A stretch of DNA of 34,280 bases from a virus. Each line of letters opens with the position of its first letter. Position 1 is the first letter of the stretch. Under the pieces are notes generated by a model. It made no database searches. It was not told where the DNA came from and worked only from the letters and a program-made list of their open reading frames with translations. A program made the translations under genes and the position numbers. Positions 24,788-31,557 of this stretch are shown piece after piece. Where the stretch lies: positions 1-34,280 of the IMG/VR virus record IMGVR_UViG_3300037562_000275. One strand, written 5' to 3'.

Positions 24788-26013
24788 GTGCATCACTCGC
24801 CAAATTTGACCCAGCGGCCAGCCGCCGCGTGGGGCTGGTGGTGGGCGGGCATGTGTTCGACCGCTGGACCGATGTGGATGTGGACCGCGACCTGCGCAAC
24901 ATCGCGGGTGGGTTTACCATGCAGTACGAGGATTCCGGGCGGATCGCGCAGGCGGTCTCGCCGGATTTGGATACGCGACCGCCGTTCGAAATCATTAAAC
25001 CCGGCATGGCCTACACCGTGCTGCTTGACGGCGAGCCGGTGCAGAAGGGCTGGATTGATGAGGTCCAGCTAAAGGACAACGCCGACGAGCTGGAAGCCAC
25101 GGTAACCGGGCGCGATATTTGCGGTGACCTGGTGGATTGCGCGGCGTCGCCGGACGGCCCGGTGGAGTGGCGCGGGCTGAATGCGTTGCAGATCGCGCAG
25201 GGGATTTGCAAGCCATTTGGCTTGAGCGTGCGGGCCGAGGTGGATGTGGGTGCGGCCTTCCCGGTGTTTGGCATTCAGCTCGATGAGAATTGCATGCCGG
25301 CGATTGAGCGCGCGTGCCGCCAACGTGGGATGCTGATGGTCTCTGACGGCGTGAGCGGATTGATTCTGACGGTGGGCGGCAATACGCGCGCGCCGGCGGC
25401 GCTGGTGCGCGGGGGGAATGTGCAGGCCACCGATTATACGAATTCCTGGACCGAGCGATTCAGCGATTATTATGTGAAGGGGCAGACCAGCACCGCCGGC
25501 CAGCGTGCGGGCCAGGATGCCGCGATGACGCCCGGCACCGACCCGACCACGGACCCGGTGGCCCCGCCTGATGACGGCGTCGACACGGCCGAGGCCAGCA
25601 CCATTGTGATGACCGGCCATGCGATCGACCCCGAGGTGACGCGCTACCGGCCGAATGTGCGCGGCGTGGCGACGCAATCTGGCACTGCCTCGGCCCAGGC
25701 GCAGGCGGAGTGGGCGCTGCGGGTGGCGCGCGGCATGGGCGAGACGCTGAACTACACGGTGCAGGACTGGCGGGCGGGTGCCGCGAATGCGCTGTGGCTG
25801 GCCAACCAAGTGGTGGCGGTGAGCGATGCTTACTTAAATATCAACCGCGACATGCTGATCAGCGGCGTGAAATACCGCATGAGCGAGGCGGGGATTTTTA
25901 CCGTGCTGCGGGTGGCCGGACGCACGGCGTTCGACCGGATTGATGAGCCGGCGAAAGACCGGCTGCTGTTCAAGCGCGCGCCGCGCACGTTTGGCCCGAC
26001 ACGGAACGGCTGA
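24784..26013 (+). CDS. Baseplate hub protein (Mu gpP/gp44-like)
   Basis: 409 aa from a GTG (GTGA overlap) and beginning MSASLAKFDPAASRRVGLVV. The frame is open upstream but only inside gpN. Matches include LRNIAGGFTMQYED, KPGMAYTVLLDGEPVQKGWI, the DICGDLVDCAASPDG-type segment and NALQIAQGICKPFGLSV. The C-terminal half contains WTERFSDYYVKGQ, usual for gp44/gpD-like hub proteins (gp27 fold). It shares its last base with the next ATG. Confidence 0.9.
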   Translation: MSASLAKFDPAASRRVGLVVGGHVFDRWTDVDVDRDLRNIAGGFTMQYEDSGRIAQAVSPDLDTRPPFEIIKPGMAYTVLLDGEPVQKGWIDEVQLKDNADELEATVTGRDICGDLVDCAASPDGPVEWRGLNALQIAQGICKPFGLSVRAEVDVGAAFPVFGIQLDENCMPAIERACRQRGMLMVSDGVSGLILTVGGNTRAPAALVRGGNVQATDYTNSWTERFSDYYVKGQTSTAGQRAGQDAAMTPGTDPTTDPVAPPDDGVDTAEASTIVMTGHAIDPEVTRYRPNVRGVATQSGTASAQAQAEWALRVARGMGETLNYTVQDWRAGAANALWLANQVVAVSDAYLNINRDMLISGVKYRMSEAGIFTVLRVAGRTAFDRIDEPAKDRLLFKRAPRTFGPTRNG

Positions 26014-26513
26014 TGACGCAAGAGCTTTATTCCAACCTGCGCGGCCTGGCGAATGTTGGCCAGGTGATTGCCGTGGACGATTCCGGCCAGGCGCAAAAAG
26101 TGACGGTACGCACCGGCGACAATGTGGAGCGCGCCGATGTGGAAGTGATGATGCCGTTTGGCTTTTCCTCCATGCCGCCGCTGCACGGCGCGATCTGCAT
26201 GCTGGTGGCGATAGGGGCCGACCCGGCGAATTTGCGGGCGCTGCCGATTGGCGCACCATCACGGCGCTTTGGCGGCCAGCAACCCGGCGAGGCCGTGATG
26301 TATGCGCAAGACGGGACGCGCGTGGCGGTGCGGCAGGGCGGGATCGTGGATGTGTGGGGTGCCGAGCAGGTTAACGTGCATACCAAGACTTGCACGATCA
26401 ACGCGCCGGCGGGCTGCGTGATTAACGCGGCGGCTGGGACGACGGTGAACGGGGACGCTTTGGTGAATGGGAACGTCGAAGTCACCGGCAATATTTCGGG
26501 GACTGGCGCATGA
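26013..26513 (+). CDS. Baseplate assembly/spike protein (Mu gp45-like)
   Basis: 166 aa; Mu gp45 is 197. The OB-fold part (about 15-80) includes [37 protein letters not shown] and [20 protein letters not shown]. From about 95 short beta-helix-like repeats appear, such as [20 protein letters not shown] and [20 protein letters not shown]. No terminal HxH iron-binding motif is seen at the very end, unlike Mu gp45, so the membrane-piercing tip may be in another protein. ATGA joins it to the long fibre gene. Confidence 0.87.
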
Positions 26514-29500
26514 AGAGCGGGATTACAATGACCGGCACGGTTGATGCCGGGCAGGGATTTTATGTTGACGGCACGCCGGTGGGCGCGGCGGCGCTGATTT
26601 TTGAGCAGGGGACGTTCGATGTCGGCGCGCATACGCTGGTGCTGGCGGGCTCGGCATCGTTCAGCGGTGGGCCAGACGGCGTGACGCTGGATGTGTTCGG
26701 AGCCGGAGCTACCCTGGCGCAAGGGAGTATTTCCGCAACGGGGATGATTTCGCTGAGCAGCGATTTTGACCTGACCGCTGGCAGTTTAAGTATTTCGGAA
26801 AGCGGGCCGCTCTCTTCCTCGCTCGCGGCCGTGGCTAGTTTGGCGGCGGCGGCGATGCCTGAATTTAGCCTCGGGCCAGATTTCTCGTTCTCTGGCACCA
26901 CGCTGGAGCTGGAGACGAATTTTGTTGAATATGTCGAGGCGTCGAACGGTGTGACAGCCGCGATCACGGGGCGCACCCTGGCGGTGGGGCAAACGCTTGT
27001 CACTTACGGCAGCGGAGTGCCGACTTTCTACGCGCCGCCCGGCGTTATCTACGAGCGGCAGGATTCCCCAGGCTCCGTAATCGACCGGGTATATGTGTCG
27101 AACGGCGGGAGATACTTGGCGCCGCTACAGGCCGCTGACGGCGCTGTCCATCAGTATTTGTTCAACGAGACCACGGGGAGCGTGCTGGTAGACACGGGGA
27201 GCAGCCCTGTTAACGGCAGCTACACGGCTCCGTATTCCTTGGGAAATGCGTCGCATGTGAACGGGGTCTCAGCAGCGGCGAGCATCGCTTCGAGCGGGTA
27301 CGCAGGTGTGCCTGTTGTTGATCCGCCCGCCGGCGTGGGCGGGGCGTGGGCAATCGAGATCATCTACATCCCGTCTAATGTCACCGCCACGGGGAGAATT
27401 TTCAGCAACTCGCGGGCGGATACCAACGGGCTTGGCTTTACGATTGAGGGCATAAGTTACGCTCTTGGCTCGTACCGCTTCCTCGTCGGATTTAGCGGCG
27501 GAATTTCCTCCGTCACGCTGACAAATACTTTAGTCGCGGGAACGCTCTATCATATTGTCGGTGTCTATGACGGCACCAACTTATTGGTTTATCAAAACGG
27601 GGTTTTGTGCGGCTCGGTCGTGCCGAGCGGTACATATATGCCGGGCACCAATAATATCGAGTTCGGGCAGAACGCCGGTAATCCAGGCAATGATTTTGCC
27701 CCTGGGCTGTATCAATGCGCGGCGATGTATAATTACGGCCTGACCGCCGCTCAAGTTCTCAGCCACTATAATGCGATCAGTTTCAGCGGGACACCATGGG
27801 CGGATGTGCAGACTGTCAACGCGCTGACCGCAGGAGGCACCCTGATTGGTGCTGGCAATGCGGTGCAAGCCGGGACAAATATAACCCTGGGCCTCAGCGG
27901 CGAAAACATCATCATCAACTCCAATCCTGAGTTTTTCCAAGGGACGCTGACCGGCGTTGGGAACCCGGCCATCGGGACGGGGTTGCTCCTAAGTGGCACG
28001 AGCAACCCGACGATCAGTAATGCGGGCGTGCTGGCGCTGGCCGTTGGGACCACGGCGCTGGCGGGTAGCATTGCTCTGGGTTCGGAGTTTTTCACCACCA
28101 CCGGCACGCTGCATGTGTCGGCGGTTGCCGCGCCAATGACGATCCAGAGCGGCGGCACGGTCACGAATACGTTGGCGACGGGGCTGAATTTCACCGGCTC
28201 TGGGGTGACGATTTCCGGCACCGGCGCGACGGAGACGATCAACATTCCTGGGAGCGTTGGCGGCGTCACCTCGTTCAACACGCGCACAGGGGCAATCACG
28301 CTCACCAGCGGCGACGTTACCGGCGCGCTCACATACACCCCAGCGCACGCGGGGGTGAATAGCGACATCACGTCGCTCACCGGCTTGACGACGGCCCTAG
28401 CAGTCACTGAGGGCGGCACAGGCGTCACCACCAGCACGGGCACGGGGGCGAACGTACTCTCCACGTCACCTACACTGGCAACTCCCGCGCTGGGCACGCC
28501 GACATCAGGAACGCTGACCAACGCGGTTGGCCTCCCGCTCTCGACCGGCGTCACAGGAAATCTGCCGGTAGCGAACCTTGGCTCGGGCACCGGGGCTTCG
28601 TCGTCCACGTACTGGCGCGGGGATGGGACATGGGCCGCGCCGGCTAGTGGGGGCGGCGGCACAGTCACCAGTTCCACGGCTGGGCAACTGGCGTGGTATT
28701 CCGCCACCGGTACAACTGTGGTCGGCAACCCGAACGTCACCTATTCCGGCGGTGCGCTAACTATCGGCGTCACGGGCACGCAGACAGGCAGCCTCGTGCT
28801 GGCGGGCGCCACGTCCGGCGCGGTGACGATTAAACCAAACGCGGCGGCGGGTAGTTGGGCGATGACGCTGCCCGCCACGGCTGGAACAAATACCTACGTG
28901 CTGACCACGGACGGCTCGGGCAATTTGTCCTGGGCCGCGCCTGGTGGCGGCTCTAGCGTCACCTACGGCGGGAGTGCGGTCACGTCGCTGGTTGCTGGGT
29001 CAAACGTCACGATGACGCTCGCGGCGGGCGCACTGACCGTGGTGTCAAGCGGTGGCGGCTCGATCTACAACAGACCTGCACTGTCAGCGTTTACCTGGTG
29101 CAACCAAAGCGGCGTCGGCGCGTCTGCCACGGATAACACCGGCGGCCCGCTTACAATGAGCATAACGAACACCACCCTGAGTCTGACGGCGTTAACGCTG
29201 CCTGTCCCTGGCTCAACGTGGACGATTATCGCGCAACTGTTTACCGACCAGGGGGGTGGAAACCAGTTTTTAGGGCTATCTCTACACAATACTTTGACAG
29301 GCCCCGGACTTGTATTTTCCATCTACGGAAAATCAACTTTCTATATTTTCAGATTTTCAAGTCCAACCTCTTACACAAGCGGAACTGGTGGGGCGGGTGC
29401 CTCGTATAATCCAGCATGGCTAAAAATTGTAAATAACGGCACTAATTTGACGTATTCCTCGTCCTCAGATGGTTTTGATTTTGTTACCGTTTTCACGACA

Positions 29501-29614
29501 ACGCTTACCGCAGATTTGGCATCGATTACACATATTGGCTTTGCAGGCACGGCCAACAATTCAACCTCAAATTACCACGTAAAACTATATAATTGGACAT
29601 TGACCACCCCGTAG
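26510..29614 (+). CDS. Long tail fibre/receptor-binding protein with lectin-like domains, ends at amber codon
   Basis: 1034 aa. Residues 1-60 ([20 protein letters not shown]) resemble spike-like repeats. About 205-425 is a LamG/concanavalin-type sandwich: [60 protein letters not shown]. About 430-840 holds fibre repeats, including [20 protein letters not shown] and [13 protein letters not shown]. About 850-1034 is a second beta-sandwich ([20 protein letters not shown]) encoded by AT-richer DNA. It lies between gp45 and gp46, which are adjacent in Mu. It stops at TAG (29612-29614), and the same frame continues open to 29953. Host-surface binding is inferred. Confidence 0.85.
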
Positions 29615-29953
29615 GCGGCAACCGGCGCGGCGCAAATCTCGGAAGGACCGCTCTCGGATAGCAGTGTTGTGGTGGTGGCGCCGACAACGGGTTCAACAAT
29701 CACGGTGCCGAATGGCTGCTCCACATACGTAGTCAACCCATCAGGGACGTTGGCGGCATTGACGATCAATTTGCCCGCAAATCCCGTGGTGAGTAATCCC
29801 AACCCGATATTAAGAATCAAGATACAAAAAGCCATCACGTCGCTCACCTTGTCCGGTAACGGGTCGACTTTAAATGTTGCCGTTTCTGGGGCATCAGTGA
29901 GTGGGTCGACGACTTATGACGCGATCTATAACGCCGGGACGTGGTATTTTTAA
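29615..29953 (+). pseudogene. In-frame C-terminal fibre extension beyond the amber codon (readthrough product or remnant)
   Basis: 112 codons in the same frame as the fibre, without a stop until TAA (29951-29953). The peptide starts AATGAAQISEGPLSDSSVVV and later has GTLAALTINLPANPV and AITSLTLSGNGSTLNVAV, typical of distal domains in alphaproteobacterial tail proteins. The only internal starts are GTG codons at 29669-29677, and the nearest Shine-Dalgarno-like sequence (GGAAGGA, 29641-29647) is 21 bases away. Options: amber readthrough giving a 1147-aa fibre, a stranded old C-terminus left by a module swap, or a small separate gene. Confidence 0.6.
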
Positions 29954-30032
29954 GTAACGATGCAATTCCGCCCGGCGCTTCTGCCACCGCCGGGTTGCAG
30001 GCAACACTTCGCGCGCGCGCGATAGTCCGGGC
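29954..30032 (+). promoter_or_regulatory. Intergenic hairpins and CG tract before gp46
   Basis: Between the fibre remnant and the gp46-like gene: CCCGGCG (29971-29977) pairs with CGCCGGG (29988-29994), then GTTGC/GCAAC (29994-29998 and 30001-30005), followed by CG repeated six times (30010-30021). There is no T-run, so a classical terminator is unlikely. It may restart or insulate expression after the inserted fibre gene. No -10/-35 pair is convincing. Confidence 0.4.
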
Positions 30033-30485
30033 ATGGATGTGGCCCTGCAATATGATCCGGTGAAGCGCTGCTGCGACCTGGTTTTTAATGGCCGGGATTT
30101 CGCGCTCGACTACACGCCGGGGAGCGCCATGCTGTTTTCGATTTTGGCGGAACGGCGCGCGGCGAATGATGATGTGCTGCCCGACACGGTGCCCGACTAC
30201 ACCGCGCCCAGCACGTTTATCGCGCGGCGCGGCTGGTGCGGGGATTTTCTGGATGCACTCGGCCGGTTGACCGGCTCGCGCTTCTGGCTGCTGCGGCGGG
30301 CAAAGGCGACCGAGGAGACGCGGCGCTCGGCCGAGGTCTATTTCGCCGAGGCGCTGATCTGGCTGGAGACCGAGCGGAACCTGGCGGTGCAGATTACCGT
30401 GCGCTGGGTGAAGCCCGGCGTGCTCGGTATTCTGGCGCGTTGCGGCAAAGCTTCGCTCTCACTTTCGCGCGCGTTGGCCGCGTGA
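30033..30485 (+). CDS. Baseplate protein (Mu gp46-like)
   Basis: 150 aa; Mu gp46 is about 146. The blocks CCDLVFNGRDFALDYTPGSAML, FIARRGWCGDFLD, GSRFWLLRRAKATEETRR and ALIWLETERNLAVQITV match the gp46 family, which is equivalent to T4 gp25/GPW wedge proteins in position. The ATG at 30033 has no clear ribosome site. The next gene begins 13 bases after the stop. Confidence 0.9.
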   Translation: MDVALQYDPVKRCCDLVFNGRDFALDYTPGSAMLFSILAERRAANDDVLPDTVPDYTAPSTFIARRGWCGDFLDALGRLTGSRFWLLRRAKATEETRRSAEVYFAEALIWLETERNLAVQITVRWVKPGVLGILARCGKASLSLSRALAA

Positions 30486-30498
30486 TGGGTGCCTGCTG

Positions 30499-31557
30499 AT
30501 GCCAGTTCCTGTTCCAGCCCCTGGTGTGATCTCCGGCCGCGCCGCGGCGATTTACGAGGAGCTGCTGCCCGGCATCGATGCGCGCAGCCCGAACACGGTG
30601 GCGACCGCGAACACCCGCATCGTGGAAATGGCGATGCAGGATTTATATGTGCAGCTGCAGAACGTGGCGGATGAGACGATGCCCGACACCGCGCAGGACA
30701 ATCTGCCGCGCTTTGGCACGATGTGGGATGTGCCGCAGGTGCAGCCGAGTTTCGCGGGCGGCAATGCGGTTTTTACCGGGGGCAACACCACGGTAATCCC
30801 CTCTGGCTTGCAGCTTAGCGCCGCCTCACAGGCTATTTATGTCACCACGGCAGAGGTGACGATCGGCACCTCGCTCACCGCCAGTGTGCCGGTGCAGGCG
30901 GTTATTGCTGGAGTTGCGGGCAATTTGGTGGCCGGGGCGCCGCTGACGATTGTCTCGCCGGCGGGGCTGAACCTCAACACGGTTGCCACGGTGGACAGTA
31001 ACGGGCTGACCGGTGGTGCTGATATTCAGGGCGTGCCGGCGTGGCGCGGGGATATCATCCAGGAAATCCAGGATGAGCCGGCGGCGGGCGACTACGCTGA
31101 CTATGTGAAATGGGCGAAAGCGGCGCTGCCGAATGTGCAGCTGGCGGTGTGCCCGCCGGCGGCGTGCGGCGGTGGCGTGGTGAGCGTGGCGATTGCCATG
31201 ACCGGGCTGGTGCCGCCCACCACAGAGCAGATTGCGGCGGTGCTGGCTTACATCGAGACGCAGCGGCCGGTGGGTGCGACGAATATCACGGTGTACGCCT
31301 GCGTGCTGAACCCGGTGAATGTGACGCTGCATCTCAACCCTGACACGGTGACGATCCGCGCGGCCGCGAGTTCCGCGCTGGCGCTGAGCTTTGCCCAGGA
31401 TGCCGCGATTGGCGGTACGACCTACAAGAGCCGCCTGGAGACTGCCATCGGCATATCGGATGGTGAGGATAGCGATGAGATGACGGCACCGGCGGCGGAC
31501 GTAGCCGCGCCCACGCTGTTCTCCCTGAACGTGCTCGGCACGGTGAGCTTCGTATGA
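30499..31557 (+). CDS. Baseplate J-like protein (Mu gp47-like)
   Basis: 352 aa, near Mu gp47 (about 360). Typical features: N-terminal ARSPNTVATANTRIVEMAMQDLY, a GTMWDVPQVQPSFAGGNAVF beta part, GVAGNLVAGAPLTIVSPAGLN, and the GYADYVKW-type helix (GDYADYVKWAKAALPNVQ). J-like proteins form the baseplate wedge ring. The end overlaps the next ATG by 4 bases, and the order gp46-gp47-gp48 is as in Mu. Confidence 0.92.
   Translation: MPVPVPAPGVISGRAAAIYEELLPGIDARSPNTVATANTRIVEMAMQDLYVQLQNVADETMPDTAQDNLPRFGTMWDVPQVQPSFAGGNAVFTGGNTTVIPSGLQLSAASQAIYVTTAEVTIGTSLTASVPVQAVIAGVAGNLVAGAPLTIVSPAGLNLNTVATVDSNGLTGGADIQGVPAWRGDIIQEIQDEPAAGDYADYVKWAKAALPNVQLAVCPPAACGGGVVSVAIAMTGLVPPTTEQIAAVLAYIETQRPVGATNITVYACVLNPVNVTLHLNPDTVTIRAAASSALALSFAQDAAIGGTTYKSRLETAIGISDGEDSDEMTAPAADVAAPTLFSLNVLGTVSFV

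Follow-up and report, generated by a model that had tools for sequence, protein, structure and literature searches.

Recent mosaicism has been described for certain functional classes, tail fibres included (PMC10684548). In the cdiA/rhs systems, when a new 3' module integrates, the coding sequence of the former C terminus is pushed downstream and becomes an orphan module, for which roles as a fossil and as a reserve have both been proposed (PMC4927057). In code-15 phages, TAG is reassigned to glutamine (PMC9523058, PMC10607447). Here we describe a phage tail fibre gene that ends in TAG and is followed, in the same frame, by an open stretch homologous to fibre tips. We favor, with a probability of roughly 0.84, the explanation that a distal domain ending at the stop was recently swapped in or inserted, stranding the old tip as an untranslated 3' relic. 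Most likely, then, the locus is a case of ordinary phage mosaicism and not a new way of stop-codon readthrough. A tail-fibre domain swap caught before the displaced end decays offers both a clear junction and the direction of the exchange. It also illustrates that a frame kept open past a stop is not in itself a sign of readthrough: what has to be asked is whether the domain in front of the stop usually terminates at that point.

The fibre gene and the open frame behind its stop

The stretch of DNA analyzed (34,280 nucleotides, hereafter the window) covers the greater part of a Mu-like phage or prophage and lies on a 40-kb contig (C38) of a bacterial genome. Its assignment to the Mu-like phages follows from Pfam matches to DDE_2 (the Mu transposase), Portal_Mu, Phage_Mu_F, Mu-like_gpT, and Phage_Mu_Gp48, all in one cluster. 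The fibre gene is enclosed by the baseplate operon (26013-30485), between a spike-like and a wedge gene, instead of being placed after gp48. The features of the locus are collected in Table 1.

Table 1. Features of the fibre locus, in window coordinates.
Feature	Position	Strand	Basis or remark
Baseplate spike-like gene, fibre neighbor	26013-26513		Neighbors match baseplate hub and wedge PHROGs
Tail fibre gene, 1034 aa	26510..29614	+	PHROG tail fiber 11393 at residues 611-803
Internal Laminin_G_3 / ConA-like domain, fibre residues 277-416	27338..27757	+	Pfam PF13385, E 1e-13
Repeat-rich shaft, common to the L009/L010 fibre	28259..28678	+	tblastx matches, ORF translations
AT-rich distal lectin-like domain, residues 851-1034, putative incoming module	29060..29611	+	phrog_19068, ten viral homologs, profile, GC
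TAG stop	29612-29614	+	Most likely where the present fibre truly ends
Putative stranded former C-terminal tip module, 112 codons, open	29615..29950	+	Homology to fibre tips
TAA, stop of the stranded module	29951-29953	+	
Baseplate wedge gene, fibre neighbor	30033-30485		Neighbors match baseplate hub and wedge PHROGs

An earlier note on this DNA, made from the letters alone, had described a fibre stopping at TAG with a same-frame extension of 112 codons that encodes a typical distal tail domain. ORF analysis bore out the first part of this description: the frame of the fibre ORF stays open up to the TAA, the remaining two forward frames of 29615-29950 are broken by 6 and 5 stops, and when the bases of this stretch are shuffled, one frame stays open in 0.63% of cases. 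The region recurs in a second assembly, the IMG/VR contig L008, with a single differing base (at 31109) in 5816 nt and with the same TAG, which is thus not an accident of a single assembly, with the reservation that L008 and the window may come from the same or a linked sample.

The 112 codons match the C terminus of the uninterrupted fibre of L009/L010, with 52% identity to L009, so the extension is a genuine distal fibre domain as proposed; this homology to fibre proteins is the decisive reason for regarding the stretch as formerly coding. From the first relatives we made a profile of the tip (A1) and searched 249 genomes of the same bacterial family, obtaining matches in 28 of them, the window's own counted. 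One weak match (L043), probably spurious, was set aside, and three loci were cut by contig ends. The tip was fused inside one long fibre ORF in all 25 fully readable family relatives and in two viral contigs. In the 25, an uninterrupted run of 101 to at least 500 same-frame residues preceded it, and the protein ended within 2-9 residues of it in 21 of 28 sound loci. Because it is always fused in readable relatives, we conclude that the tip is normally the end of a fibre and not a gene of its own.

The earlier note had named relatives with a separately started 3' part as the observation that would tell against its proposal; we looked for this arrangement and found none among the 25 fully readable relatives and two viral contigs. 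The same result bears on whether the 112-codon stretch is translated separately, from an internal start, as a small tip protein. A 94-aa product could begin at the GTG codons at 29669-29675, but there is no in-frame ATG, the nearby GGAAGG lies about 22 nt upstream, leaving no ribosome-binding site at the usual spacing, and the module is never its own gene in relatives. We consider separate translation very unlikely.

The lectin-like domain and the position of its stop

The part of the fibre immediately before the TAG is a lectin-like domain, matched by phrog_19068 at positions 125-264 of 267. Homologs were found with a degenerate DNA pattern for the motif WLxIxxNGTN, which yielded ten further viral contigs with homologous proteins, nine of them distinct since those of L081 and L090 are identical. 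The distance from motif to stop is 62-68 codons in all ten and 65 in the window, and TAG, TAA, and TGA all serve as this stop in the family. In each complete homolog, the additional copies on L067 and L071 among them, a profile of the domain, which takes in the window sequence, ends 0-24 residues short of the stop. By motif-to-stop distance and by profile, the domain in the window terminates at its own natural C terminus. The window fibre has five residues after the last W where three are usual, and because it thus extends two residues past the usual domain end, the TAG is perhaps not the donor's stop; it may be either the donor's own or one formed at the junction, at most two codons from the usual end.

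A phrog_19068 scan of the 249 family genomes returned the window itself as the sole match, a class-wide search gave one weak match, and short exact peptides together with tblastn found no relatives in phages except L008. Among solved structures there was no convincing relative, and single-sequence structure prediction of the domain gave a mean pLDDT of 33. The viral contigs L067 and L071 each have three separate ORFs ending in this same domain, which suggests that alternative fibre genes are arrayed there.

The position of the stop bears directly on how the open frame is to be read. The earlier note had offered three readings, amber readthrough giving two fibre lengths, suppression in some hosts, and a very recent module swap; the last of these is supported here, and the first two are not. 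Programmed or host-dependent amber readthrough would produce a minor long fibre with both ends, and it would accommodate an open extension that keeps the frame and matches fibre tips. It is nevertheless highly improbable, since the stop falls at the usual end of the domain family and TAG is an ordinary stop here, ending 5 of 35 likely phage genes (the fibre and four others). RF1 is present. The parts of the phage contig that were scanned (the window and the contig ends) contain no tRNA, and among 42 host tRNA matches those read include no CTA anticodon, the resolved ones being ordinary; one weak host tRNA-like fragment at the end of a contig (C34) received no ARAGORN assignment. None of the 25 fully readable relatives shows an in-frame stop before the tip, and none of the nine lectin-like homologs having sequence past the stop (0/9) has a tip module behind it, so the conservation of stop and extension in relatives that would mark programmed readthrough is not seen. 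Nor were the suppressor tRNA and many in-frame TAGs of a recoded code-15 phage found, the tRNA search covering the contig parts named above. We rejected recoding or a suppressor tRNA because TAG is used as a stop elsewhere, no CTA tRNA was found on those parts or among the host tRNAs read, and RF1 is present.

The junction and the fibre 3' end as a site of exchange

The compositional difference that had favored a swap in the earlier note, with DNA before the TAG AT-richer than DNA after it, was confirmed: GC is 0.42-0.45 before the TAG versus 0.54-0.60 after. Within the lectin-like domain GC is 0.48 overall and 0.42-0.45 in the later part, and it is about 0.65 upstream of the domain. The best change point falls at 29601-29603 (support 29590-29617), with a permutation p of 0.004-0.018 in windows ending at 29800, weakening to 0.03-0.13 when the windows also cover the AT-richer end of the tip. 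Directly behind the TAG, the first residues, AATGAAQISEG, are similar to the linker that precedes the tip in relatives, such as AATGTASFSGG in L026. This resemblance was reached by 49 of 3000 shuffles, with the list of relatives chosen after looking, and the likeness to a linker is only suggestive. Together, the change point and the linker-like residues, the latter a weak likeness, put the break at the TAG or slightly upstream of it.

A break at this position also bears on another history, in which the fibre was one 1147-residue protein with the tip behind the lectin-like domain until a single substitution made the TAG between the two. Such a point nonsense mutation would account for the intact frame on either side of the TAG, and it would give the order of shaft, distal domain, and tip that is seen in L009/L010, where the shaft is followed by a different (third) middle domain and then the tip. 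However, the lectin-like domain and the tip do not occur together in any ORF of the fetched loci, a stop placed at random in about 1146 codons would come to lie no more than 3 codons from the normal end of the domain family in only ~0.6% of cases (7/1146, by our own arithmetic), and the GC break coincides with the TAG. We therefore regard a nonsense mutation as unlikely.

We found a syntenic locus, L046, in which the flanking DNA on both sides is 71-73% identical to the window. Its fibre gene occupies the same position, has another distal domain, and ends in its own TAA, and because of this difference at the same gene position we take the fibre 3' end to be a swap site. The L046 fibre gene is followed by a 257-nt spacer (L046:5719-5975), after which homology resumes at window position 30008; no tip remnant was found in any of the six translated frames of the spacer. 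This non-coding spacer interrupts otherwise compact baseplate genes and may be debris of earlier swaps.

Under the explanation we favor, a swap or insertion, the distal end of the fibre would have been replaced or extended when its gene recombined with the 3' end of a different fibre gene. The incoming lectin-like domain would terminate by the TAG at the normal C terminus of its family, and the former C-terminal tip would be left directly downstream as a relic. That the junction was made by recombination, that the exchange was recent, and that the tip is no longer translated are each probable on the comparisons above. For the relic to be still in frame, the event would have to be recent and the phase matched by chance, a one in three outcome. 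Several features count against a swap that left a relic: the frame is exactly kept across the stop, the relic is without decay, a state in which a neutral relic stays for a short time only, and the fibre extends the two residues past the usual domain end. Nor was a close relative with the pre-swap fibre found.

A stranded tip might instead be a kept reserve, a silent fibre end revived by low-level readthrough or by recombination, the latter as proposed for orphan cdiA/rhs modules, and if so a minority of virions would get another tip. We consider this unlikely.

A perfect 16-nt direct repeat, CATCACGTCGCTCACC, is present in the fibre shaft (28366-28381) and in the stranded tip (29833-29848). 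Both copies encode ITSLT, and their spacing of 1467 nt is a multiple of three, so recombination between them would preserve the frame; judged from its sequence, the repeat may be a simple consequence of a common short peptide. Site-specific inversion of the Mu G segment type was rejected because there are no convincing inverted crossover repeats around the module and no serine invertase on contig C38, the ten Resolvase-family matches of the genome all lying elsewhere.

Comparison with known systems

The closest described counterpart is mosaicism of receptor-binding proteins (PMC10684548), in which, as here, non-homologous distal domains are swapped onto a common fibre; L009/L010 share the shaft and the tip with this locus but not the middle domain, and L046 has another distal end at the same gene position. 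The locus differs in that the displaced module would still be visible, in frame and directly behind the new stop. With the cdiA/rhs orphan modules (PMC4927057) it shares the displacement of an old C-terminal part downstream by a new 3' module, but the relation is one of analogy and not of membership, as there is no toxin or immunity gene here and the module is a fibre tip. With code-15 phages (PMC9523058, PMC10607447) it has in common an in-frame TAG in a structural gene; unlike in those phages, this is a single case, TAG is a stop elsewhere, and a suppressor tRNA was not found.
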